Origin: Emticicia agri
Lineage (GTDB): Bacteria; Bacteroidota; Bacteroidia; Cytophagales; Spirosomataceae
Direction: 5' to 3'
DNA length: 64,000 bases
Assembly: GCF_004168285.1 (NCBI RefSeq)
Contig: NZ_SEWF01000010.1
Coordinates: 62,001-126,000, forward strand
Both the position numbers and the translations under genes were made by a program. Below the pieces are notes generated by a model, which saw nothing but the letters and a program-made list of their open reading frames with translations, searched no databases and was not told the DNA's origin. Shown one piece after another: positions 4,275 through 58,000 of this stretch. Each line of letters opens with the position of its first letter. Position 1 is the first letter of the stretch.

Positions 4275-4420
4275 GGCTTTTGGGGTCAGAATTTCTGTTT
4301 ATAGACGTATCCGCTTAATAATTTTCTCTTAGAAATATCAAAATAAAACACCCAATTATGCAAAAAGAAATTTTCAGTACAGTTTTTTAACTTCGTAAAA
4401 AGTTCGATTATTTAAGATTA

Positions 4421-4454
4421 TCTGCCACTTATCTAATTTATTCTGCCACTTACC
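4421..4454 (+). promoter_or_regulatory. 21-bp-period direct repeat, probable LytTR operator
   Basis: TCTGCCACTTATC (4421-4433) and TCTGCCACTTACC (4442-4454) differ at one of 13 bases and start exactly 21 bp apart, two helical turns. Such direct repeats are the usual target shape for LytTR domains. They lie about 76 bp before the LytTR-only gene at 4530, between the terminator and its start, so autoregulation or control by the regulator at 3381 is likely. I see no gene in 4134-4529. Confidence 0.6.
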
Positions 4455-31396: not shown

Positions 31397-34300
31397 TTGA
31401 GAACCGGACAATTAATATTCTTTTTCTTTCTTCTCTGTATCTCCGAAAACCTCTCGGCACAATATATTTTTGACAATATCAAAACCAAAGACGGGCTATC
31501 TTATAAACAGGTTATCAGTATCCTGCACGATAGTGAAGGTTACTATTGGTTTGGCACACTTAATGGCCTTAATCGTTTCGATGGCTCTACCATTAAGGTA
31601 TTTAACAAAGCTAATAAGAATACAACCGGATTGCCCGAAGATTATGTAAGTTCAATAGCCGAAAATACAGATGGAAAATTGTGGCTTTCTACGCCTGCGG
31701 GTGTTACCGTTTTTAATAAATGGACGCAGACTTTTACTAATGTAGCTTTCGAAAATTACGCCAAGCCTATCAATGTTATCAAATTAATCCGCAATAAACA
31801 TCATGTAATCTGGGCATTTACTTACGACGAAGGCTTATTCTGGTACAATCAGCAAAAACAAAAATTTGTTCATTTCGCAGGCGATTCAATCCTTAAAAAT
31901 ATAGGTATTTTCAGGTTAGGTATAGCAGAGGATACCCTGCGGAGCGGCTTCTGGATATCTACACAACAAGGCTTACATTTTGTTGACTATGAACAATCAA
32001 AGATTTACAACCATGCCTATAATCCCAAAAAATGGGAAGTATTGAACAACCATAACATTACGGCAGTAGCGCTTGATAACGAAGCCAACTTATGGTATAG
32101 CGACCAGACAGACCAGGCCATTCATCATTTCGACTTCAGAACTAAAGCAGACAAGCAATGGAAAGAGCTACTCAAAAAACCATTGATAAAATTAGGTGAT
32201 GGAGCCAATAAACTCTTTGTTGATTCACAGGGTACTCTCTGGATCTCAAGTTGGAAATACAGGTCTTTTTACCTGAAGAAAGGAGCAAAAGATATTGAAC
32301 AGTTTGAATATGCCATTGCCGACCCTAATGACTTAGGATACGGTTTTTTTTACGATTGCTATGAAGACACAAAAGGTACAGTCTGGGTCGGCACGCTTAA
32401 TGGGGTGAGTCGCTGGCGGGTATCTCACTCACTCGAAAACATCATTCATATACCCAGTTATAAAGCTTACATTGACGTAGAGTTTGCTTCTGTGAATGAT
32501 ATATACCTCGGCGAAAACAATGACTACTGGATAGCGAAAGAAGACGGTTTGTTTTATTTGAAAAACCTGCAAGCACCTGCCGAGAGATATGTAGTATCTC
32601 CTACAGTTCTCAATAAAAACGAGATACTGAGTGCAACTCTGATTAACAAAGAAGTATGGTGTACTACTTATTTAGGCCTAATAGCTTTTAACCCTGCTAC
32701 TAAACAATTCCGTGATATTTCAATACCCTCTATACAAGCAAGCGAAGCAGGACAAGCCTATACCCAAAACAAAAACCGACCTTTTATTACCAAGATTTTT
32801 GTCTCTAAAGGTATATTGCCGGATAAAGAAGAAGAGGCCAATAGCTTATGGCTCTATTCTTTCAGAGATGGATTTTATACCTATAATCTTAAAACTAAGA
32901 ATACTAAAAAATACCCTGTTGATGCAGGCCCCTGCACCATGATTCAGCAGACAAAGTCTGGAGAAATGATAGCTTGCATGGAAGACGGCATCTGGATTTT
33001 TGACAGAAAACTTCAGAAATTCAGAAAGATTCCGGCAGACTGTCTGAAAGATATTTTTTGCCACAAAATCGCCGAAGACAAAGACGGTTATCTATGGGTT
33101 GGTACCAATAAGGGACTTTATCAGATTGACATAAATGGCAAGTGTATTTTTAAAATGACTACCTCAGACGGCTTACTGATGAATAGTGTCTCTCAGTTAG
33201 CTTTCGACCAGTTAAATAATCTCTGGCTTGGCACCCACAGTGGTATTTTAGGGTATCTGAATATTAAAACCAAAACTTATGCGGTTTTTGATTTTAATAC
33301 ACGGCTTCCTTTTCATGAATACTGGGCGAATTTCAGACAGAATAAAAAAACAGGACAATTTATTATTACTGTTTTTGATGAAATGCTGATTATTAATCCA
33401 CAGAAACTGCAAAATAAAGAAGCCATTCAGAAGCCTATTATTACAGATATACAGGTTTTTGAAAAAGAAATGCCCTTTACTGAAAAAGACAAACTTAATC
33501 TTACTTATCAACAGAATTATTTTACTATCAACTTCTCTTCGCCCGACCATCGGGATAACGTAGCCTTGCAATATGCCTATAAGTTGGAAGGATACGACGA
33601 TAACTGGATATACTGTGGCCGAAAACTGTCTGCTTCCTACACAAATGTTCCTGGTGGTGATTATCAGTTTCTGGTAAAAGTTATTGATAATCAGGGTAAA
33701 CGGCAAGAGAAAACCACCACATTTACTATTTATGTAAAGCCTCCTTTCTGGGAAACATGGTGGTTCAGGTCAATCATGTTTGTCCTATTTGTAGCCATTA
33801 TGTACTGGGTATGGCTATTGTTCAGGAAGCGGCAGGAAGAACTGAAACTGATAGAAGAGAAAGAACGCAAGATACTTGAGTTTAATAAACTACTGGCCGA
33901 ATCGAAGCTGACGGCCTTGCGTACACAAATGAATCCGCATTTTGTGTTCAATTGTCTGAATAGTATTCAGGAATGTATCGTGTTTGAGAAATATAAAGAA
34001 GCCCAGGGGTATTTACAGAAGTTTTCAAGGCTGATGCGGCTGGTTTTACAAAATTCTGATAAAAATCTGGTTCCTTTGAGTCAGGAAATTGAAATGTTGA
34101 AATTGTATCTTGAACTGGAGAAACTGAGATTCACTGAGAAATTCACCTACGAACTCATGTATGATACCAATGAAATAGATGCAGAAACCATTGAGATTCC
34201 TCCTATGCTTTTGCAACCTTTTGTAGAAAATGCCCTATGGCATGGCTTGTTACCTAAAAAAGAAGATCGTAAACTTTTGCTTAGTTTCCGGTTGTCAGAA

Positions 34301-34543
34301 GACGATATATTAGCGTGTGTGATTGAAGACAATGGTATTGGCCGACAAAAATCTTATCTTTTAAAGAAAAATCAGACTGTTACCAAAAAGCATGAGTCGA
34401 AAGGTATCAGAATCACTCAAGACAGGCTCAATCTGATAAGTTTACAGCATAAACAACACGCTCGTATTGAAATTATTGATAAAGAAGACAATGACGGAAA
34501 TCCGACCGGAACAAAGGTGATTATTGAGCTTGCTGTGGGATAG
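31397..34543 (+). CDS. Propeller-domain sensor histidine kinase (LytS-type output)
   Basis: A 1048-aa membrane kinase. It has a signal peptide (RTGQLIFFFFLLCISENLSAQ), then about 14 two-component-propeller repeats (from DGLSYKQVISILHDSEGYYWFGTLNGLNRF to about 680), a Y_Y_Y domain (about 700-780), one span (about 789-810), and a His_kinase/HATPase core with His848 in QMNPHFVFNCLN and EDNGIGRQKS. Unlike classical HTCS it has no C-terminal receiver or AraC domain. The frame has a stop at 31391, and the first usable codon is TTG at 31397. The next in-frame ATG lies far inside, so a TTG start is well supported. A -7-like TACTTTTA is at 31369. The partner is the LytTR regulator at 34566. Confidence 0.9.
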   Translation: MRTGQLIFFFFLLCISENLSAQYIFDNIKTKDGLSYKQVISILHDSEGYYWFGTLNGLNRFDGSTIKVFNKANKNTTGLPEDYVSSIAENTDGKLWLSTPAGVTVFNKWTQTFTNVAFENYAKPINVIKLIRNKHHVIWAFTYDEGLFWYNQQKQKFVHFAGDSILKNIGIFRLGIAEDTLRSGFWISTQQGLHFVDYEQSKIYNHAYNPKKWEVLNNHNITAVALDNEANLWYSDQTDQAIHHFDFRTKADKQWKELLKKPLIKLGDGANKLFVDSQGTLWISSWKYRSFYLKKGAKDIEQFEYAIADPNDLGYGFFYDCYEDTKGTVWVGTLNGVSRWRVSHSLENIIHIPSYKAYIDVEFASVNDIYLGENNDYWIAKEDGLFYLKNLQAPAERYVVSPTVLNKNEILSATLINKEVWCTTYLGLIAFNPATKQFRDISIPSIQASEAGQAYTQNKNRPFITKIFVSKGILPDKEEEANSLWLYSFRDGFYTYNLKTKNTKKYPVDAGPCTMIQQTKSGEMIACMEDGIWIFDRKLQKFRKIPADCLKDIFCHKIAEDKDGYLWVGTNKGLYQIDINGKCIFKMTTSDGLLMNSVSQLAFDQLNNLWLGTHSGILGYLNIKTKTYAVFDFNTRLPFHEYWANFRQNKKTGQFIITVFDEMLIINPQKLQNKEAIQKPIITDIQVFEKEMPFTEKDKLNLTYQQNYFTINFSSPDHRDNVALQYAYKLEGYDDNWIYCGRKLSASYTNVPGGDYQFLVKVIDNQGKRQEKTTTFTIYVKPPFWETWWFRSIMFVLFVAIMYWVWLLFRKRQEELKLIEEKERKILEFNKLLAESKLTALRTQMNPHFVFNCLNSIQECIVFEKYKEAQGYLQKFSRLMRLVLQNSDKNLVPLSQEIEMLKLYLELEKLRFTEKFTYELMYDTNEIDAETIEIPPMLLQPFVENALWHGLLPKKEDRKLLLSFRLSEDDILACVIEDNGIGRQKSYLLKKNQTVTKKHESKGIRITQDRLNLISLQHKQHARIEIIDKEDNDGNPTGTKVIIELAVG

Positions 34544-34565: not shown

Positions 34566-35306
34566 ATGATAAAAGCACTCTTGGTAGATGATGAGGTATC
34601 TGCCCGAAATCTGTTAAGTCATTATCTGAAAACTGAAGTACCGGAAGTCAGTGAAATTCGTCTGGCTGATTCGGTTGACAGTGCTTTGGAAATATTGCAA
34701 CACTATCAACCTGATATTGTATTTCTTGATATTGAAATGCCCGAACGCAATGGTTTTGATTTTCTCATTGCCTGTGAGCAAATCAGTTTCGATATTATAT
34801 TTGTTACGGCTTACAACCAGTATGCTATTAAAGCCATCCGTTTCAGTGCCTTAGATTATTTACTAAAGCCTGTAGATACCGAAGAACTGACGGCAGCTAT
34901 TGCCCGGCATTTAGAAAAACGAGGCACAAACCAACAGGCACTCTATGAGAACCTAAAACAAAACCTTAAAAACAAAGAAGAAAAAGAGTTTCAGTTAGCT
35001 GTTCCTACTACCGAAGGCATTTTCTTTTTCAGACTCGAAAACCTCATTCGTTTAGAAGCCAATGGTAGCTATACGCTTATTTATTCTTCTACCCGTAAGC
35101 CATTTCTGGCTTCTAAAAACCTGAAATACTTTGAAGAAACTTTAGACAATCAGTCTTTTATCCGCCCGCATAAATCTCATCTCGTTAATCTGAAATATAT
35201 AACGGGGCTTTCGGCCGATAAAGATTTTCTTGTTTTACAAGACAACTCTCAGGTTGAAATCTCCCGTCGCAAAAAAGAAGAAATTCTTACCGTATTAGGC
35301 CTGTAA
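34566..35306 (+). CDS. LytTR-family response regulator
   Basis: A 246-aa regulator. The receiver (about 1-118) has Asp55 in VFLDIEMPERNGF and LLKPVDTEEL. The LytTR domain (about 145-245) has LIRLEANGSYTLIYSS, IRPHKSHLVNLKYI and VEISRRKKEEI. The frame is open from a TTG at 34524 inside the kinase gene, but the ATG at 34566 begins the receiver fold (MIKALLVDDE) and is used here. It follows the kinase by 22 bp. Two matching direct-repeat sites 3' of the gene (35319, 35954) are its likely targets. Confidence 0.92.
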   Translation: MIKALLVDDEVSARNLLSHYLKTEVPEVSEIRLADSVDSALEILQHYQPDIVFLDIEMPERNGFDFLIACEQISFDIIFVTAYNQYAIKAIRFSALDYLLKPVDTEELTAAIARHLEKRGTNQQALYENLKQNLKNKEEKEFQLAVPTTEGIFFFRLENLIRLEANGSYTLIYSSTRKPFLASKNLKYFEETLDNQSFIRPHKSHLVNLKYITGLSADKDFLVLQDNSQVEISRRKKEEILTVLGL

Positions 35307-35318
35307 TACGCATTTCTT

Positions 35319-35388
35319 ACCGAAAACAAACTCCTTATTACCGTTCGCAAAACGCATTTCTTCCCTGCGTTTGTATGGCTTTATTTTG
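35319..35388 (+). promoter_or_regulatory. LytTR direct-repeat operator A and promoter
   Basis: Repeats ACCGAAAACAAA (35319) and ACCGTTCGCAAAAC (35340) start exactly 21 bp apart and are followed by GCATTTC. The ACCGTTCG core matches known LytTR (AlgR-type) half-sites. TTATTTTG (35381-35388) is a near-consensus -7, 41 bp after the second repeat. Operator B at 35954 is the same over 31 of 42 positions without gaps, with a -7 at the same distance. Confidence 0.72.
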
Positions 35389-35410
35389 CTTCAAGGCTTA
35401 CAAAAAAAGT

Positions 35411-35635
35411 ATGAATAACGTAGCAAAAGCAATTGTCTTAGGGGTAAAGGAAACAGGCCGACACCTTAATTATAATCCCATTCTTATTATAGAATTATTG
35501 GTATATGCAGAAGACTCAGGTGCATTCAAGACTTCTGTTGAACTCACTGTGCCACGAGTTTCCATTCCCAAAATGGGAGATAAATGGCTGGTTAAATATA
35601 ATTCTGCCAAAAAAGATGAAATCGAAATTTTATAG
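35411..35635 (+). CDS. Small hypothetical protein
   Basis: A 74-aa protein (MNNVAKAIVLGVKETGRHLNY...), probably cytoplasmic, with no signal peptide or recognised domain. The central part (PILIIELLVYAEDSGAFKTSVELTVPRVS, read in pieces) looks like a small beta-rich fold, as in short domains that modulate membrane or secreted proteins. The frame is open from an ATG at 35375, but that codon lies upstream of the predicted -7 box, so I use 35411. It ends 3 bp before the next gene and is probably translationally coupled to it. I do not recognise the family. Confidence 0.6.
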   Translation: MNNVAKAIVLGVKETGRHLNYNPILIIELLVYAEDSGAFKTSVELTVPRVSIPKMGDKWLVKYNSAKKDEIEIL

Positions 35636-35638
35636 ACC

Positions 35639-35935
35639 ATGAACACTAATCTTATGCTCACATTTTTTAAAATCGGTGCTGTAATAAACGGCATTGCGAT
35701 ATTAATCGCCTTTATTCATCTGGTGGTTGACGCTATCGAACAATCAACCACAGATAACGCAGTGATAACCCTGATCATAATAGCTTATATCGCCTTATCA
35801 ACGCTGGGTTACTTTCTTAAGCTCCACAATCACCTGAAAGCAGCATTGATTGCGATCTGGATTCCGGCATTTCCTGTAGCACTAATGGGGATTTTGTTCT
35901 TACTGCTCATTATTATAAACCCTGATTTTAAATAA
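35639..35935 (+). CDS. Small membrane protein, three predicted spans
   Basis: A 98-aa hydrophobic protein with spans at about 10-30 (TFFKIGAVINGIAILIAFIHL), 40-60 (AVITLIIIAYIALSTLGYFL) and 68-92 (KAALIAIWIPAFPVALMGIL and onward). No family recognised. It follows the 74-aa gene by 3 bp, and both appear to be driven from operator A. Its place between the response regulator and the solo LytTR/fibre operon suggests an accessory role in the same response. The function is unknown. Confidence 0.65.
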   Translation: MNTNLMLTFFKIGAVINGIAILIAFIHLVVDAIEQSTTDNAVITLIIIAYIALSTLGYFLKLHNHLKAALIAIWIPAFPVALMGILFLLLIIINPDFK

Positions 35936-35953
35936 GTAGCCAATCTTGTATTG

Positions 35954-36024
35954 ACCGAAAATAAAACCAGTTGTACCGTTTACAAAACCAATTTCAGTTT
36001 CAACTCATACACAATATAACTTTG
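35954..36024 (+). promoter_or_regulatory. LytTR direct-repeat operator B and promoter of the fibre operon
   Basis: Repeats ACCGAAAATAAA (35954) and ACCGTTTACAAAAC (35975) start 21 bp apart and are followed by CAATTTC. TAACTTTG (36017-36024) is a perfect -7 box 42 bp after the second repeat. A weak TTTC lies at the -33 distance, as expected for an activated promoter. The ATG of the LytTR gene is at 36053. Confidence 0.75.
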
Positions 36025-36052: not shown

Positions 36053-36439
36053 ATGAAAACTCCCATTCCAAATGTACATTTTCCGATGATTGAATCAGGT
36101 AGAATTCAGTTAAGAGGAGACAAAGGTAAAATCAAATTACCCATCAAAAACATTCTTTTTTTAGAAAGCGAAATTAACTATACGCTTATCTATACTACTG
36201 ATGGAAAAAAATATTTATCAGCCTATACGCTCGGCATTTATGAAACCTTGCTCAATTCTAAAGCCGAATTTATCCGTACTCACCGCGATACGCTGGTAAA
36301 TATGAATTATGCTGAAAAAGTAGAAATGCAGTCGAACAGAAGAGGGATGATTAAGATGAACAGCGGCCGTCAGATACAGGTTTCACGCCGCAAAATGCCG
36401 CTGGTTATTGAACGTAATACACAATTGATGCGAGCTTAA
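36053..36439 (+). CDS. LytTR DNA-binding domain protein without receiver
   Basis: A 128-aa protein that is almost entirely a LytTR domain (about 25-125: IKNILFLESEINYTLIYTTD, FIRTHRDTLVNMNYA, IQVSRRKMPLVIERN). It has no receiver. It is the first gene of the probable operon that continues into the fibre genes, 36 bp before the first, and it lies behind operator B. It could sustain or limit expression of the operon by competing for the same sites as the response regulator. The same arrangement is seen at 4530. Confidence 0.88.
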   Translation: MKTPIPNVHFPMIESGRIQLRGDKGKIKLPIKNILFLESEINYTLIYTTDGKKYLSAYTLGIYETLLNSKAEFIRTHRDTLVNMNYAEKVEMQSNRRGMIKMNSGRQIQVSRRKMPLVIERNTQLMRA

Positions 36440-36474: not shown

Positions 36475-37806
36475 ATGAAAAAGCTATTACGGCATTTTGT
36501 TTCCTTTATTCTGTTTTTTAATGTTTTTGTTTTTATAGCATCTGCTCAAATTAATACCTCAACCGGAGAAGACCAGGGTATTACGATTACGCCTGAAGGT
36601 ATAAAAGGCAGATTCCCTCTCTCAAGCGAGCCAACAAACGTAGCTTTAGGAAGAAGTGCTCTCAGATTAGTCAGTACAGGTACAGACAATACTGCAGTAG
36701 GAGACAGAGCACTCTATAACAATACAAAATCTTATAATACCGCCTGTGGCGATCTGGCACTCTATGCCAACACTACAGGTATCTATAACTCGGCCTTTGG
36801 TGCCAATGCCTTACAGAAAAACACTATCGGTTACGAAAATGTAGCCATAGGTGCATATGCACTATTTAATAATACATCACTATCAAAAAATGTAGCTATA
36901 GGTACTTATTCTTTGTTTTCTCAGGCTTATGAAGGAAACCTTGGTGAGAATACTGCCATTGGCCATTCGGCTCTATATAGTAATAATCCGACTGATTCGT
37001 TTAATGGTTCTCAAAATACTGCCGTTGGTAATAGTGCCCTTTACTTCAATAAGACAGGTACCTACAATGTAGCCATAGGTTATCAGGCTTCGTATAATAG
37101 TGATGGTGGCAGCGACAATATGGCATTAGGCCATAAAGCACTTCATAGTAACGTTTCAGGGTCTACTAATGTAGCTATAGGAAACGAAGCTTTATACATG
37201 AGTACAGGCTCGGGCAATGTGGCTCTTGGCTATAGAGCAGGTTATAATGAAACCGGAGATAACAAACTATACATTGCCAACAGTGAAACAAATACACCTT
37301 TGATAGGGGGCGATTTTGCCAACAAAAAACTGGCTATTAATATGGATATGACCCTTACAGGGCCCAATGATTTCAAAACACGCACAGAAGCCCTACAAGT
37401 AGGTGGAGAGGCATTTAAAACATATGGTACAGGAAACTGGGCATTTGTGTCTGACCGTCGGTTAAAGAAAAACATTCAATACCTGAACAGCCGGGAAATG
37501 CTGAACAAGCTGATGCAGATGCAAGGCGTTACCTATCAGTTGAAAGACGGAAACGATAAGAAAACGCATTATGGCTTTATTGCGCAGGAACTACGTGAAA
37601 TATTTCCGGAAAAAATCAAGGAAAATACGGCAGGATATTTATCAGCAGACTATGGTTCTTATGATGCCATTCTGATAGAAGCTATAAAGGCTGTCAACGA
37701 TAATATTGAGGAAGTAAAGGTAAACATCCCTGAAAAAGAAACGCTCTATAAGCAAACCCTGCTAATGGTTGAAAATCTGGAAAAACGTATCCAGAAGCTC
37801 AAATAA
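36475..37806 (+). CDS. Secreted trimeric fibre protein with S74 chaperone, paralogue 1
   Basis: A 443-aa exported protein. A signal peptide (about 1-24, ending ASAQ) precedes 14-residue-like left-handed beta-roll repeats (about 50-265) of the YadA-head type (NTAVGDRALYNNT, NSAFGANALQKNT, NVAIGAYALF). The C-terminal intramolecular chaperone is of Peptidase_S74 type (from about 320), with SDRRLKKNI (Ser326 and the Lys that follow are the probable self-cleavage dyad) and YGFIAQELREIFPEKI, and it ends in a coiled coil (about 410-443). In phage tail spikes such a domain trimerises the fibre and then cuts itself off. No anchor is visible, so the route across the outer membrane is unknown. Confidence 0.85.
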   Translation: MKKLLRHFVSFILFFNVFVFIASAQINTSTGEDQGITITPEGIKGRFPLSSEPTNVALGRSALRLVSTGTDNTAVGDRALYNNTKSYNTACGDLALYANTTGIYNSAFGANALQKNTIGYENVAIGAYALFNNTSLSKNVAIGTYSLFSQAYEGNLGENTAIGHSALYSNNPTDSFNGSQNTAVGNSALYFNKTGTYNVAIGYQASYNSDGGSDNMALGHKALHSNVSGSTNVAIGNEALYMSTGSGNVALGYRAGYNETGDNKLYIANSETNTPLIGGDFANKKLAINMDMTLTGPNDFKTRTEALQVGGEAFKTYGTGNWAFVSDRRLKKNIQYLNSREMLNKLMQMQGVTYQLKDGNDKKTHYGFIAQELREIFPEKIKENTAGYLSADYGSYDAILIEAIKAVNDNIEEVKVNIPEKETLYKQTLLMVENLEKRIQKLK

Positions 37807-37867: not shown

Positions 37868-39241
37868 ATGAAAAAATATTTATTATTGCTCATATTCTGC
37901 TTACCTGTTTCTATTTCATTCGGGCAGATTTTTTCTATCATAAATGCTGATGGTGGTATTACCATTTTACCTGATGGCATAAAAGGTATCACACATAGTA
38001 CTTCAGAAGTAACCAATGTTTCTTTAGGGACCTATACTTTAAGTAATATTACTACAGGAACCAAAAATGTAGGCGTGGGCTATTATAGCCTTCATAAAAC
38101 TACTACCGGTTCACAACTGACCGCTATTGGTCATCAGGCACTTAGTCTGAACACAACCGGAATGCTAAATTCTGCTTTTGGAAGGGGTGCTCTTGGATAC
38201 AATACTACAGGTAATGAAAACACAGCTGTAGGAGGTAGTAGTATGACTTATAATACCTCTCTTTCAAGAAATGTTGCTGTGGGTATTGCGGCACTCAGGG
38301 AGCAAACGTATGATGGAGATAACAATAGCGACAATATAGCTGTGGGGAGTAGTGCCCTCATGAATAATAATCCCACGGATGCTTCAAACGGTCGGCAGAA
38401 TATTGGAGTGGGTGATGAAGCCTTATACAAAAATCTAACAGGTTCAAGAAATATTGGATTAGGAGAATGGGCAGCGCATGAAATGCAAACCGGGAATGAT
38501 AATATAGCTGTTGGATATAGAGCTCTATGGAGCAATGTAACAGGTTCAAAAAATACAGTTGTTGGTTTCTTTGCTTTAGGAAAAAATGTAGGAACAGGCA
38601 ATGTGGCTATTGGTTCTTCATTAGGTGATAATGAACTCGGAGACAATAAACTCTACATTGCTCATGGTTCTGATGAAGATACGCCTCTGATAGGAGGTGA
38701 TTTTGCTGCCAAAAAATTAGGGATTAATCGTAATCTATCTGTTTCAGGTGGTCCTAATGATTTCAATACCCGTACCGAAACACTACAGGTAGAAGGAGAT
38801 GCTTTTAAAACAGTGGGTAATGGTAACTGGTTGTTTCCTTCTGACCGTCGTTTAAAAAAGAATATTCTGGCATTGAATCGTCAGGAAATGTTACAAAAAG
38901 TACTACAAATGCAGGGCGTTACCTATGAAATGAAGGACGAAAGTCAGAAAGGCAGACAATATGGATTTATAGCGCAGGATCTACGTGAGATTTTTCCATC
39001 TAAGATAGTAGAAAATAAAGCAGGCTATTTATCGGCAGATTATGGTTCTTATGACCCTATGATTACAGAGTCTATTAAAGCTTTAAATCAAAAACTTGTT
39101 GATTTGAAAAAGAATAAAGCTGACCTGGAATTAACAATGAATTCCCTCAATGTTGATATCACTACACTTTTAACAAAGGTAGAACAGATAGAAGCCACAA
39201 AAGCCAAATCTGACATTTCGAAGTCTATCACAGATAAATAA
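37868..39241 (+). CDS. Secreted trimeric fibre protein with S74 chaperone, paralogue 2
   Basis: A 457-aa paralogue of the gene just upstream (61 bp apart) with the same plan: signal peptide (MKKYLLLLIFCLPVSISFGQ), beta-roll repeats (about 45-255; NVGVGYYSLHKTT, NTAVGGSSMTYNT, NIGVGDEALYKNL), S74 chaperone with SDRRLKKNI (Ser325) and YGFIAQDLREIFPSKI, and a longer coiled-coil tail (about 405-450, VDLKKNKADLELTMNS). The repeat region differs much more than the chaperone, so the binding surface may be what varies. Confidence 0.85.
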   Translation: MKKYLLLLIFCLPVSISFGQIFSIINADGGITILPDGIKGITHSTSEVTNVSLGTYTLSNITTGTKNVGVGYYSLHKTTTGSQLTAIGHQALSLNTTGMLNSAFGRGALGYNTTGNENTAVGGSSMTYNTSLSRNVAVGIAALREQTYDGDNNSDNIAVGSSALMNNNPTDASNGRQNIGVGDEALYKNLTGSRNIGLGEWAAHEMQTGNDNIAVGYRALWSNVTGSKNTVVGFFALGKNVGTGNVAIGSSLGDNELGDNKLYIAHGSDEDTPLIGGDFAAKKLGINRNLSVSGGPNDFNTRTETLQVEGDAFKTVGNGNWLFPSDRRLKKNILALNRQEMLQKVLQMQGVTYEMKDESQKGRQYGFIAQDLREIFPSKIVENKAGYLSADYGSYDPMITESIKALNQKLVDLKKNKADLELTMNSLNVDITTLLTKVEQIEATKAKSDISKSITDK

Positions 39242-39272: not shown

Positions 39273-40604
39273 ATGAAAAAGTCTATATTCAGTTTAATAT
39301 TTTGCTCTTTATACACCTTGTCATTCGGACAGATTTATATCAATAACAGCAGTAATGAAAGCATTACGATTACACCTTCAGGATTGACAGGAAAACTACC
39401 CAATGTTACCACAAAAAATGACCTGATAGCTTTAGGCCCGGGAGCCTTGCACAATGTAACAGATGACAACTATGAATCTGTTGCCATTGGCAATATGGCG
39501 CTTCATAATACTACCGATAACAGGAATACAGCTTTTGGCAGTCTTGCACTTTATAGCACCAGTACGGGCAGTTTTAATAGTGCTTTTGGTAACCATACCT
39601 TAGTTTACAATACATCAGGTTATGGAAATGTTGCCTTTGGAAGTTTTGCACTCCGCAACAATGAAACATTAAAAGAAAATGTAGCTATAGGGGTATCGGC
39701 ACTTTTTTCACAAGGGGCTTACAACAATAATAATGGCAGTAATATTGGGGTTGGTTATTTTTCCTTATACGCTGTTAAGACTTTAGGCAAATACAATGTA
39801 GGGGTAGGTGCATACGTCTTACAAAATACCTCGATAGGTAGTTATAATGTGGCCGTAGGTTATCAGGCAGGTTTGAATAATCAGACCGGGTCGAATAATA
39901 TAGCCATAGGTAATTATACTTCTACTGCTGTTTTTCAGGGTTCTAATAATATATCTCTTGGCAACAAAGCCTTGAAAGATGTTGGTTCGGCAAATTATAA
40001 TATTGGTATTGGTTACAATGCAGGCGCATTTTCTTCAAATAGTGGAATGTTATACGTAGCTAACACTAATACGCCAAGTCCCCTGTTAGGAGGTATATCA
40101 ACAGTTACACACATGAAAGTAGGTATTAATCGCAATATAAATCTTACCGGAGGCAACAATTTTCTTTCTCGCAGTGAAACCTTACAAGTTGAGGGAGAAG
40201 CCTTTAAAACAAGTGCAGGGGGTACCTGGGTTATTCCGTCTGATCGTCGTTTAAAAAAGAATATTACTGCCTTGAACAGCGAAGAAATACTAACTAAAGT
40301 TTTGCAAATGAAAGGTGTTACTTACGAAATGAAAGATGAGAGTCAGAAAGGCATACAGTATGGATTTATAGCGCAGGAAATACGTGCGGTTTTCCCGGAT
40401 AAAATCTCTGAAAACGTGGATGGTTATCTTTCGGCAGATTACGGTTCTTATACCGCTATCGAAATAGAATCTATCAAAGCCCTGCATGAGAAAATAGTAG
40501 AATTAGAAAAGTATAATACTGTGCTTAAAGAAAGAATTGAAAAACTAAGAACGGCTAAAGAACTGATTTCGCAAAAGATAGATGGTATTGAAAGCAAAAA
40601 ATAA
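39273..40604 (+). CDS. Secreted trimeric fibre protein with S74 chaperone, paralogue 3
   Basis: A 443-aa third paralogue, 31 bp after the second. Signal peptide (MKKSIFSLIFCSLYTLSFGQ), beta-roll repeats (about 60-270; NTAFGSLALYSTS, NVAFGSFALRNNE, NIAIGNYTSTAV), S74 chaperone with SDRRLKKNI (Ser323) and YGFIAQEIRAVFPDKI, and a C-terminal coiled coil (IVELEKYNTVLKERIEKL). The conserved chaperone core GYLSADYGSY is shared by all three. Tight spacing indicates one transcript with the flanking genes. Confidence 0.85.
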   Translation: MKKSIFSLIFCSLYTLSFGQIYINNSSNESITITPSGLTGKLPNVTTKNDLIALGPGALHNVTDDNYESVAIGNMALHNTTDNRNTAFGSLALYSTSTGSFNSAFGNHTLVYNTSGYGNVAFGSFALRNNETLKENVAIGVSALFSQGAYNNNNGSNIGVGYFSLYAVKTLGKYNVGVGAYVLQNTSIGSYNVAVGYQAGLNNQTGSNNIAIGNYTSTAVFQGSNNISLGNKALKDVGSANYNIGIGYNAGAFSSNSGMLYVANTNTPSPLLGGISTVTHMKVGINRNINLTGGNNFLSRSETLQVEGEAFKTSAGGTWVIPSDRRLKKNITALNSEEILTKVLQMKGVTYEMKDESQKGIQYGFIAQEIRAVFPDKISENVDGYLSADYGSYTAIEIESIKALHEKIVELEKYNTVLKERIEKLRTAKELISQKIDGIESKK

Positions 40605-40636: not shown

Positions 40637-41455
40637 ATGAAAAAGCTATTCGTTTTATTCCAATTTATTTCGGTAGTTGCTTATTCACAGGCTACGCTTT
40701 TAGAACCTAATTCTATCAGTATTCCAAAAGTTGCAGCTAACCCAACCTGCAATGTAGCAGCGAAAGGGAAACAGATTTTTAATACTACCAGTAACAAGAT
40801 GTTGTATTGTAATGGAAACAACTGGATAGATTTATCAGGATTAAGCCTTGTTCTACCTTATACAGCCACAGGGTCTAATGCTAATTACCTACTCTCAATT
40901 ACAAATACAGGACTTGGGAAAGCCCTGAAAACTAATGGTGGTTTACAATTTTCAGGAATTGGAGAAGGTGCAGGAAAAATTCTGACTTCTGATGGATCAG
41001 GCAATGCCACGTGGCAAGGGCCTGTTGCCTTTCTGGCTACCTATGGCGGCGAGTCTAATATGTCGGTTGGGCAAACCTCTGAAACAACTATTCCATTCAG
41101 CAACGAGAGTTATGATATCAGTAATAGTTTTTCTTTCAGCACTTTTACTGCTCCTGCCAGTGGTATCTATCATTTTGATGCCACTATCACCTGGAGTGGC
41201 TTTTTTCAAACGAATGGTTATGCAAGATTTAATCTGTTGAAAAACGATGTAATTGCCTATGGTGAATACCAGAATGGCGAACCAAATCCCTTTTCTCAAC
41301 ACTTGTCGTTAGATATAAAACTCAATGCCAACGATACTGTTAAGTTATCCGTTTTTCAGAATAGCAACTTTGACCAGGCACTCACCAATACCGGAGCAGT
41401 CAATAACAACGGCAACTATATGTATTTTTCAGGTCACTTGGTGGCGAGGCAATAA
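40637..41455 (+). CDS. Secreted C1q/TNF-like trimerising protein
   Basis: A 272-aa exported protein (signal peptide MKKLFVLFQFISVVAYSQ). The N-terminal part (about 20-75, GKQIFNTTSNKMLYCNGNNW) is the short two-Cys segment common before fibre domains in Bacteroidota. The C-terminal about 135 residues look like a C1q-type jelly roll (FTAPASGIYHFDATITW, ARFNLLKNDVIAYGEY, and LSLDIKLNANDTVKLSVFQ ahead of the terminal YMYFSGHLVARQ). Such domains trimerise and bind ligands. It is last in the fibre operon, 32 bp after paralogue 3, so it may cap or accompany the fibres. Its stop directly abuts the stop of the convergent rdgB gene. Confidence 0.75.
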   Translation: MKKLFVLFQFISVVAYSQATLLEPNSISIPKVAANPTCNVAAKGKQIFNTTSNKMLYCNGNNWIDLSGLSLVLPYTATGSNANYLLSITNTGLGKALKTNGGLQFSGIGEGAGKILTSDGSGNATWQGPVAFLATYGGESNMSVGQTSETTIPFSNESYDISNSFSFSTFTAPASGIYHFDATITWSGFFQTNGYARFNLLKNDVIAYGEYQNGEPNPFSQHLSLDIKLNANDTVKLSVFQNSNFDQALTNTGAVNNNGNYMYFSGHLVARQ

Positions 41456-55008: not shown

Positions 55009-58000
55009 TTAGAATCTTACGTTCAAACCAAAGGTTGTAACCGAAGTAGCAGGTACAACGTTTTCACTCACGGCAGTTGTTCCGTTACCTGAAGAAGTAA
55101 TCGTTGCCTCAGGGTCAATACCATTATATTTATCACGATATACCGACCAGATTTTAGGTTGTTGGATACTTGTGTACAAACGTAGCGACTCCATACCCAA
55201 TTTCTTAGCAATTTTTGGAGAGAAAGTATAGCCAAAATTGATATTTCTTAATTTAACAAAAGTACCGTCGTAGTAAATCAACGTAGTATTGTAAACCGGG
55301 AACTCCTGTGTACTTTTCGGACGAGGGAATTCGTTAGTCGGATTATTTGGTGTCCAGTAATCAACTTTGATTTGTTGGTAGCGACCTGCCAACTGGTTTC
55401 TGTTCTGATGGAAACCACTCACAATCATGTTTCCGAAACGACCAAACAAGAAAGCTGATAAATCGAAACCTTTGTACTCAAATCTGGTGGTAAAACCAGC
55501 GCTAAAATCAGGAATATCTGAACCCAATAATACGCGGTCTGCGGCTGTAATTTTACCATCACCATTCGTATCCTGTACTCTAATCTGACCTACTTCACTA
55601 CCAAACGATTTTGCCAGATCAGCTTCGTTTGTTTGCCAGATACCTACTTTTTTGAAGTCGTAGTATGAGTTTAACGGTTGACCGATAAACCAACGGTTTC
55701 CTAAGTCGTCAACTTTACCATTATATAAAGAAATGATAGCTTCGGTATTTTTGGTAAAAGTAAAGTCAGTTGTCCATTTGAAACCACTCGGCGAATTTAC
55801 GTTTACAGTTGTAAAACCTAATTCTATACCTTTGTTACGAGTCTGACCTACGTTTCTTGTTACAGACAAGAATCCGGTTGAACCTGGTAACTGGTCAGAT
55901 AATAGAAGGTCGGTAGTATTGGTTTCATACAATTCTAATGAACCCTGGATTCTGCCTCTCAGGAAGCTAAAATCTAACCCGATATTAGCTGTTGCAGAAG
56001 ATTCCCATTTCAAATCAGGATTTCCGATAGTATTTGGTCTGTAACCAAAAGCTGCTGCTGAACCCCAGGCATAAGCTGTTCTGGTTAATAAACCTTGTGT
56101 CTGGTAAGGAGCTACCCCCTGATTACCTACTACACCCCAGCCTGCTCTCAGTTTCAATAAATCTAACCAGGTAACTTGTTTCATGAAAGGCTCATTGCTG
56201 ATATTCCAGCCTAAAGCAATACCTGGGAAATTACCATATTTGGTATTGGCACCGAAACGGCTTGAACCATCACGGCGTAGCGTAGCTGTCAGGAGATACT
56301 TATCATTGAAATCATAGTTCACACGAGCCATGTAAGAGTTAATGGTCCATTGAGTTAAACCACTACCTACCAACAATACCGAACTTGCATTACCTAAGTT
56401 ATAGAACTGTTGCGTTTCTGCCGGCACACCTTGTACCTCAGTTCTGAAAACTTCAAAATTATCTCTCTGAATAGAGTGTAGTAAAGTAACCCCTAAGTTA
56501 TGTTTACCACTAAATGTTTTGTTGTAGTTAACGATATTCTCCAATGTCCAGTTAAAGCCGTTGTTATTCTGAACAGAAGCCTGCGGGTCACCGAATTTAC
56601 GGGCATTAGTAGCTGCCCCAATAAAGCGTCCCCATCTCTGAATAGTAAAGTCAGGCCCAAAATTTACACGGTATTTTAAACCTTCGATAATTTTAACCTC
56701 TGCATACAGGCTATTAAACAAACGGTATTTTTTGGTTTCATCTACTTGTGCACCCGGTACAATCTCTGCCAACGGGTTAGTTAATAACGCATCATTGGTT
56801 GGAGAGAAAATAAGGTTTCCATTATCGTCATATGGTCTTGCTAACGGGTTCTGCTGAATGGTCATACCATAAGGGTTCAGGTTTTCTCCGTTTCTGATGC
56901 TGTACATGGTATAAGAAGATAAACCCACTTTCAGACGATTATTGATATTATGGTCAATATTTACCCTTAAAGACATACGGGTATAATCTAATCCGGCTGT
57001 AATACCTTTATCCTGAAAATATCCGCCTGAAATATAAAACTGTGTTTTATCATTTCCACCTTGTACGCCTAATGAGTGGTTCTGCATCACACCATTGCGT
57101 AAAAGCAAATCCTGCCAGTCGGTGTTAGTACCGTTAGCAATACCTCTTGCTACAGCTGGGTCACCCCCTAATACAGCAATTTTTGCATCAGCAGCAGGAT
57201 CGCCCACACCTGTTGGTACAGGATTGCCATTGGCATCTTTATAAAGGTTAGTAGCACGATAAGCCTCTCTTACATACTCAAGAAATTCAGGTCCACTAAA
57301 CAAGTTGATTTTATCAAGTGGTGTTGAAACCCCGCCGTAAGTATCAAAACTTACGGTTGTTTTGCCTTTTACCGCTCCTCTTTTAGTAGTTACTAATACA
57401 ACCCCGTTAGCACCTCTGGCACCATAGATGGCTGTAGCCGTAGCATCTTTCAAAACTTCCATAGATTGAACATCGCTTGGGTTCAGGTCTTCGTAGCCTG
57501 CTGATAACGGAATACCATCTACTACATATAGCGGGTCGTTACCTGCGTTGAACGAACGACGACCACGAATCAGAATCTTTGGTACTGACCCCGGTCTTGA
57601 ACCTGATTGAGAAACGTCAACCCCGGCTACACGGCCTTGCATAGCTTGCCCTAAACTGGTAATAGGCATTTCCTGAATCTGTTTCGCACTTACCGACGAA
57701 ATAGCACCAGTGGTCTGGCTTTTCTTCTGTGAACCATAACCTACTACAACTACTTCACTTAAAGCAGCTGCATCTTCTTCCAACGATACATTAATGGTAG
57801 TTCTTCCACCGGTGGCAACTTCCTGCGCTTTAAACCCGATGTAGCTGAATACTAAAACCGAATTGGCTGAGGCCTGAACCGAAAATTTACCACCTGCATC
57901 TGTGATGGCACCCTGAGTAGTTCCTTTTACTGTAACACTAACGCCCGGAAGGCCAGTGCCTCCAACGTCAGAAACTGTTCCCGAAACAGTACGGGTTTGA

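Follow-up and report, generated by a model that had tools for sequence, protein, structure and literature searches.

Two intergenic regions downstream of a LytTR response regulator gene in Emticicia agri carry look-alike ACCG direct repeats, one before a pair of small genes (operator A) and one before an orphan LytTR gene and a run of fibre genes (operator B). Are these two copies of one operator, which protein would read them, and what would they switch on? We addressed these questions in a window of 64,000 nucleotides, i.e., the whole stretch of DNA that was analysed (C10:62001-126000 of the 6.65 Mb source genome, G000), and in further genomes, among them that of Emticicia sp. C21 of the same genus (G002), whose matching locus lies on contig C29 (NZ_QVMT01000005.1). 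The features of the locus, in window coordinates, are as follows.

31397..34543, + strand: sensor histidine kinase (Pfam PF06580, PF07494, PF07495: Reg_prop repeats, Y_Y_Y, LytS-type His_kinase); listed start TTG
34566..35306, + strand: LytTR response regulator (Pfam PF00072, Response_reg; PF04397, LytTR)
35319..35327, + strand: operator A, half-site 1 ACCGAAAAC; 9/9 bases kept in G002
35340..35348, + strand: operator A, half-site 2 ACCGTTCGC, 21 bp after half-site 1; 8/9 bases kept in G002
35357..35360, + strand: candidate -33 box TTTC of promoter A, picked by inspection
35381..35388, + strand: -7 box TTATTTTG of promoter A, one mismatch to TAnnTTTG; G002 counterpart TTACTTTG at the same place
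35411..35635, + strand: small gene 1, 74 aa; 92% identical in G002
35639..35935, + strand: small gene 2, 98 aa; 94% identical in G002
35954..35962, + strand: operator B, half-site 1 ACCGAAAAT; 9/9 bases kept in G002
35975..35983, + strand: operator B, half-site 2 ACCGTTTAC; 8/9 bases kept in G002
35992..35995, + strand: candidate -33 box TTTC of promoter B, picked by inspection
36017..36024, + strand: -7 box TAACTTTG of promoter B, perfect TAnnTTTG; G002 counterpart TAAATTTG
36053..36439, + strand: orphan LytTR protein, 128 aa, DNA-binding domain only (PF04397); 86% identical in G002
36475..37806, + strand: fibre protein with S74 chaperone domain, 443 aa (PF13884)
37868..39241, + strand: fibre protein with S74 chaperone domain, 457 aa (PF13884)
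39273..40604, + strand: fibre protein with S74 chaperone domain, 443 aa (PF13884)
40637..41455, + strand: C1q-domain protein, 272 aa (PF00386); 74% identical in G002

The gene order is the one described in the earlier note, the response regulator ending at 35306, the small genes following at 35411 and 35639, and the orphan LytTR gene at 36053 preceding the fibres. PF06580 and PF00072 are encoded by adjoining genes, a two-component pairing in which kinase 31397 is the probable partner of response regulator 34566. The orphan LytTR gene is presumed to be the first and the C1q gene the last gene of a fibre operon; the orphan's product is soluble by prediction, without a hydrophobic helix. Small gene 2 has about three membrane helices by hydropathy and no Pfam family match above the cut-off, and for small gene 1 no protein family match was found. 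Beyond G000 and G002, small gene 1 has a weak match in one of the 150 genomes searched and small gene 2 has weak matches in two of 101. S74 chaperone domains number 39 in G000, several of them in tandem clusters.

Operators A (35319-35360) and B (35954-35995) are identical at 31 of 42 bases without gaps, as previously claimed, and the next-best ungapped match to either of them in the whole window, on both strands, is 25/42; a binomial estimate over all placements in both intergenic regions puts the chance of the A-B match at about 4e-5. Both can be read as 9-12-9 bp direct repeats with a period of 21 (A, ACCGAAAAC-12-ACCGTTCGC; B, ACCGAAAAT-12-ACCGTTTAC), their ACCG words starting at 35319/35340 and 35954/35975, where the earlier note had placed them. 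The bare ACCG-N17-ACCG pattern occurs three times in the window against 0.49 expected (A, B, and 57857 inside an opposite-strand gene for 1019 aa) and, given that three of 100 shuffles also reach at least three, it is weak evidence, unlike the 42-bp match.

Bacteroides promoters have the -7 consensus TAnnTTTG and the -33 box TTTG, the latter not found in Flavobacterium johnsoniae according to an excerpt of PMC7366714, and an excerpt of PMC9723704 places TAnnTTTG at -12 to -5 in Flavobacterium psychrophilum. Counted from the first base of the second repeat, the -7 boxes start 41 bp (A, 35381) and 42 bp (B, 36017) further on, where they had been reported; the one at B is perfect and the one at A has one mismatch. 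The candidate -33 box TTTC, one base off TTTG, begins 17 bp beyond the first base of the second repeat, at offset 38 from the first ACCG at A and B alike, in G000 and G002; 8 bp separate it from the end of half-site 2, and 20 (A) or 21 (B) bp separate it from the -7 box, in both species. As ATTTC ends both 42-mers and thus places TTTC near -33, the tail of the 42-bp match is probably -33 region rather than operator. Both promoters would accordingly have a -33 box that is imperfect at best, with the repeats directly upstream, where an activator could sit. The activator role that had been proposed for the regulator is favoured by this position only, i.e., repeats just upstream of -33 as at HdrRM (excerpt of PMC6193735).

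The gene order is fully kept in G002 (identities of 79% for the kinase, 90% for the response regulator, 86% for the orphan and 62-69% for the fibres), both operators are at the same places, and the A-B distance is 635 bp in both genomes. The 14-bp half-sites kept 27 of 28 bases at A and 26 of 28 at B, and the whole 37-bp operator cores 32/37 and 33/37; the intergenic DNA outside the cores kept 51/67 and 57/80, and the coding DNA of the small genes 200/222 and 252/294. This conservation carries limited weight, since the cluster was found in two species only, which are about 84% identical here. The first base of the second half-site has changed from A in G000 to G in G002 at both operators, a weak hint that A and B track the same protein. 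Patterns from the first 16 residues of the orphan found it in one other genome, that of Emticicia sp. C21, and its best-scoring match beyond these two (98 genomes searched) is 39% identical. Next to the 40% homologs of the orphan (C7, G001, G002, G003), the adjoining 21-bp repeats are only A-/T-rich or upstream of other genes.

How rare is the shared word? For two extended forms of it we relied on exact sites only, because the two-mismatch counts for both resemble those of reversed controls. The zero-mismatch sites of RCCGN6AN9TRCCGTTYRCAAAA are A and B in G000 and A and B in G002, with none in the other nine genus genomes. The second form, RCCGAAAAYAAAM-N8-RCCGTT, has three zero-mismatch sites in G000 (A, B and C1:8703), three counterparts in G002, one site in G001 that is the counterpart of C1:8703, and none in the remaining eight of the 11 genus genomes. 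The bare repeat fared differently: the genome-wide search that had been suggested, run as ACCG-N17-ACCGTT, gave no enrichment, with 11 places being fewer than the 61 of the reversed pattern, and we rejected it as a target finder. A composite pattern that includes the -7 box has 11 matches in the 11 genus genomes vs two for the reversed control, all in G000, G001 and G002, with one of the five in G000 lying inside a gene. Beyond the genus the composite pattern was also discarded, as it is not above control (54 matches in 139 genomes vs about 66, counted by hand); 27 of these out-of-genus loci were placed against genes, 11 being intergenic and 16 inside a gene.

The third site aligns across G000 (C1:8703), G002 (C28:133728) and G001 (C12:988012), its operator kept while the DNA upstream diverged. 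Its -7 box stands 63 bp (G000) or 62 bp (G001) after the operator's first base; in G002 no perfect -7 box is present (one mismatch by eye). The operator (L224:8703-8921 = G000 C1:8703-8921) precedes an unannotated, conserved frame for a basic peptide of 37 aa, which is present in three of 150 family genomes, all of this genus and the same three as the site itself. After CCGTT the right half reads CCTATA, vs YRCAAAA in A and B, which share that ending only with each other. G001 is without the local cluster, and its closest match to response regulator 34566 is 43% identical; the persistence of the site there implies that this regulator is not the word's only reader, and another LytTR protein should serve it in G001. 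A candidate, on protein comparison, is the C24 response regulator, which is 97-99% identical among G000, G001 and G002 and has a best match of 43% in other genus genomes (none at cut-off in G006). The picture drawn in the earlier note changes to the extent that the word extends beyond this locus, to a third operator before the 37-aa frame, also in G001.

The 21-bp period recurs at LytTR genes elsewhere in the genome. G000 has 72 LytTR domains (71 proteins parsed, 30 of them shorter than 200 aa), including the hit at C26:52225 in region L187, which is part of the period and orphan counts. Taking 10 of 12 matching bases as a self-repeat in intergenic DNA, with 29 other offsets for comparison, we found a 21-bp repeat in 13 of the 92 intergenics beside LytTR genes (other offsets: mean 1.93, maximum 5). 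Other intergenics, drawn from the same stretches as the LytTR loci and not a random genome sample, are enriched too (20/204; mean 5.21, maximum 12). The other species gave 4/37 beside LytTR genes (mean 1.0, maximum 3) and 5/116 elsewhere (mean 2.07, maximum 5), each weak by itself. Coding DNA was excluded with a simple, greedy gene caller (ORFs from 60 aa), and some small genes may therefore have been taken for intergenic DNA. In promoter-oriented intergenics of G000 and the other species, a perfect -7 box that begins 33-45 bp downstream of the second word's first base accompanies nine of the 57 21-bp repeats vs nine of the 450 repeats at the 29 other periods, the highest of which is 20 bp (3/24). 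Half-site words vary between loci and the spacing is constant. One example is the pair ACCGTTAGATAA/GCCGTTGGATAA, which precedes an orphan LytTR gene and has counterparts in two further species; another is CACAGTT/CACAGTT, present in two species ahead of a 543-aa protein and a response regulator. Of the 27 orphan LytTR genes whose upstream DNA exceeds 60 bp, seven carry a 21-bp repeat in it, vs two of 16 response regulators or long LytTR proteins. One stretch that is also in the window (L094) was left out of the -7-box, orphan-upstream and repeat-example analyses. Locus conservation, word rarity and the 21-bp period at LytTR genes all speak for the earlier proposal of co-regulating LytTR operators, and we regard it as very probable that A and B are LytTR operators and that the promoters they precede are activated.

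With moderate confidence, and judging from sequence comparisons, we favour the adjacent response regulator 34566 as the protein that binds A and B; the orphan or a third LytTR protein is a possible binder. The LytTR domain closest to that of the response regulator in the genome belongs to the C1:221773 protein (46%; open frame of 353 aa), whose gene adjoins the ACCGTTAGATAA operator of the ACCGTT type. The C24 regulator comes second (39%), the C55 protein beside the CACAGTT operator has 33%, and the C10:65846 response regulator, which lies beside the different word TCTGCCACTT, also has 33%. The closeness of this last regulator counts against our preference, as does the region upstream of kinase 31397, in which no ACCG was found. 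Were the orphan to bind B and A instead, it would activate itself in a positive feedback and leave other targets to the response regulator, an arrangement that we consider unlikely even though B lies directly before the orphan's own gene and HdrR of Streptococcus mutans autoactivates through 9-12-9 repeats (excerpt of PMC6193735). The higher share of upstream 21-bp repeats at orphan genes than at regulators and long LytTR proteins also favours the orphan; three of the seven are on contigs (C46, C74) that yielded no LytTR proteins other than short ones. However, operator A directly follows the response regulator gene, the LytTR domain of the orphan is only 25% identical to that of the response regulator, and its eight closest LytTR domains are all in short LytTR proteins; two of these (C17, C46) are preceded by a 21-bp repeat, whose words differ from those of A and B.

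The exact RCCGAAAAYAAAM-N8-RCCGTT sites at C1:8703 and its counterparts, one of them in a genome without the local cluster, would suit a third LytTR protein that binds A, B and C1:8703, with the present locus as an outpost of a small dispersed regulon, and the C24 regulator occurs in the same three genomes. Yet the right half of the third site departs from A and B after CCGTT, and shared presence in three large, related genomes ties the C24 regulator to the sites weakly; we rate this explanation slightly below that of the orphan. Chance resemblance, or the remains of a promoter duplication that bind no protein, could be argued from the ACCG-N17-ACCG copy inside the gene at 57857, from the shuffles and from the scarcity of ACCG-N17-ACCGTT relative to its reversed control, but the extended match, the conservation in a second species, the near-uniqueness, the 21-bp enrichment and the -7-box link are not expected by chance and make this reading very improbable. 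We consider it reasonably likely that A and B are one operator present twice, bound by regulator 34566 and activating both transcripts, and we count in favour of this reading that the same geometry precedes another orphan LytTR gene in three species.

Under the reading with regulator 34566 as the binder, each copy of the operator would sit directly upstream of an activator-dependent promoter. Kinase 31397 would switch on the response regulator, presumably by phosphorylation; a dimer of the regulator would occupy both half-sites, which the 21-bp period (two turns) puts on the same face of the DNA, and contact RNA polymerase at the imperfect -33 and the -7 box. Transcription from A would then yield small genes 1 and 2, and from B the orphan LytTR protein, the three S74 fibres and the C1q protein, the orphan acting as a second-tier or feedback regulator. 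One signal would thus probably switch on the small genes, a second regulator and surface-fibre genes together.

This layout has relatives, here compared through excerpts of the papers cited. In S. mutans, LytTR systems carry 9-bp repeats with a spacer of 12 bp (once 11) that stand 4-11 bp ahead of -35; at HdrRM and BrsRM the distance is 8 bp, 10 bp being usual in other species, and for HdrRM direct autoactivation was demonstrated with repeats just upstream of -35 (PMC6193735). These LRS (HdrRM, BrsRM) resemble our locus in the 9-12-9 repeats, the 8 bp before the distal box, words that start with ACC, repeats before a small LytTR gene and a small membrane protein gene beside it. Unlike them, the present locus has a two-component kinase and response regulator, a Bacteroidota promoter of the -33/-7 type, and a membrane protein gene that precedes the LytTR gene and has an operator to itself. 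Orphan 36053 is, like an LRS regulator, small and soluble with direct repeats in its own promoter; an LRS has its membrane inhibitor gene downstream in the same operon, whereas the 98-aa membrane protein is encoded upstream. By the order of its membrane gene the locus is not an LRS, and the lack of a Pfam match above cut-off for small gene 2 means that no link to LRS membrane proteins was found. An LRS would also predict that orphan LytTR genes are generally paired with small membrane proteins, an expectation that we rejected: with a same-strand neighbour shorter than 200 aa and at least two predicted helices as the criterion, one of 30 orphans has such a partner, at this locus only.

For two Bacteroides operons (B. 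thetaiotaomicron, B. ovatus), Table 3 of PMC6193735 predicts 11-bp CCG-core repeats 11 bp apart, laid out as TCCGGTATTCA-11 bp-ACCGGAAATCA-11 bp-TGTA-19 bp-TATCTTTG, with the promoter TGTA/TGTG-19-TATCTTTG. They belong to the same phylum and share the CCG-core repeats before a TAnnTTTG promoter and a membrane gene upstream of the LytTR gene; unlike here, the period is 22, the distal box is 11 bp away and the LytTR protein has membrane segments, and the Table 3 section makes no mention of a fibre operon. PlnC and PlnD bind as dimers to 9-12-9 repeats of which the right one is closer to consensus (PMC2714321), as in our locus, where the right half reads ACCGTT. PlnC/PlnD and AgrA are, like regulator 34566, response regulators with a LytTR domain and repeats just upstream of the promoter, one regulator serving neighbouring promoters (PMC2714321, PMC4227749); their promoters are of Firmicutes type and their targets are bacteriocin genes or the agr operon, vs small genes and S74 fibres here. 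AgrA promoters have their proximal repeat centred near -60 (PMC4227749), further out than here, which counts against the reading that we prefer. The excerpts of PMC10197871, PMC10269533 and PMC5395568 make no mention of LytTR operators, and among the open-licence papers found on LytTR or Bacteroidota promoters we recognised none with an experimentally defined LytTR operator of Bacteroidota, the nearest being the Bacteroides predictions in the section of PMC6193735. The layout matches Firmicutes LytTR systems and the Bacteroides predictions, to which the locus adds a conserved case with a doubled operator and fibre targets.

If the predicted binding is true, the locus offers a testable model of a LytTR operator for Bacteroidota whose geometry relative to a -33/-7 promoter is exact and kept in another species. 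The third site, before the unannotated 37-aa frame, would widen this model, and the 21-bp period would be a simple target predictor for the many LytTR proteins of these genomes. More boldly, and in our estimation doubtfully, large Emticicia genomes might use a cis code for their dozens of LytTR proteins: many of these would have a private word of 21-bp period in the promoter of their own gene, and where words overlap in part, small circuits between loci would arise (e.g., A/B and the 37-aa operator). In such a code, small gene 2, transcribed from A, could be a membrane inhibitor of the orphan transcribed from B; the two-component system would then arm an LRS-like switch that controls surface fibres.

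Similar arrangements were seen at other places. In genome G151, a 555-aa LytTR protein (L230:6009) is directly followed by a GCCG-N17-GCCGTT operator with a -7 box and by two small genes, which repeats the order seen at the present locus from the response regulator through operator A to the small genes; no similarity was found between small genes 1 and 2 and the genes after that operator. At L225, which corresponds to about C19:4821 of G000 (also L227 and L228), the same ACCG operator geometry is conserved in three species. Some 420 bp further on, G001 and G002 have a gene for a 124-aa protein whose N-terminus is signal-like; the intervening DNA is conserved, and in G000 the caller gives a frame shorter than 124 aa. 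The same kind of operator recurs in another genus (L233), there 54 bp ahead of a gene whose 128-aa product by eye resembles the 124-aa protein. Within the window itself, at 4420-4452, a TCTGCCACTT repeat of 21 bp separates a LytTR response regulator gene from an orphan LytTR gene, which makes two such arrangements in this stretch of DNA.
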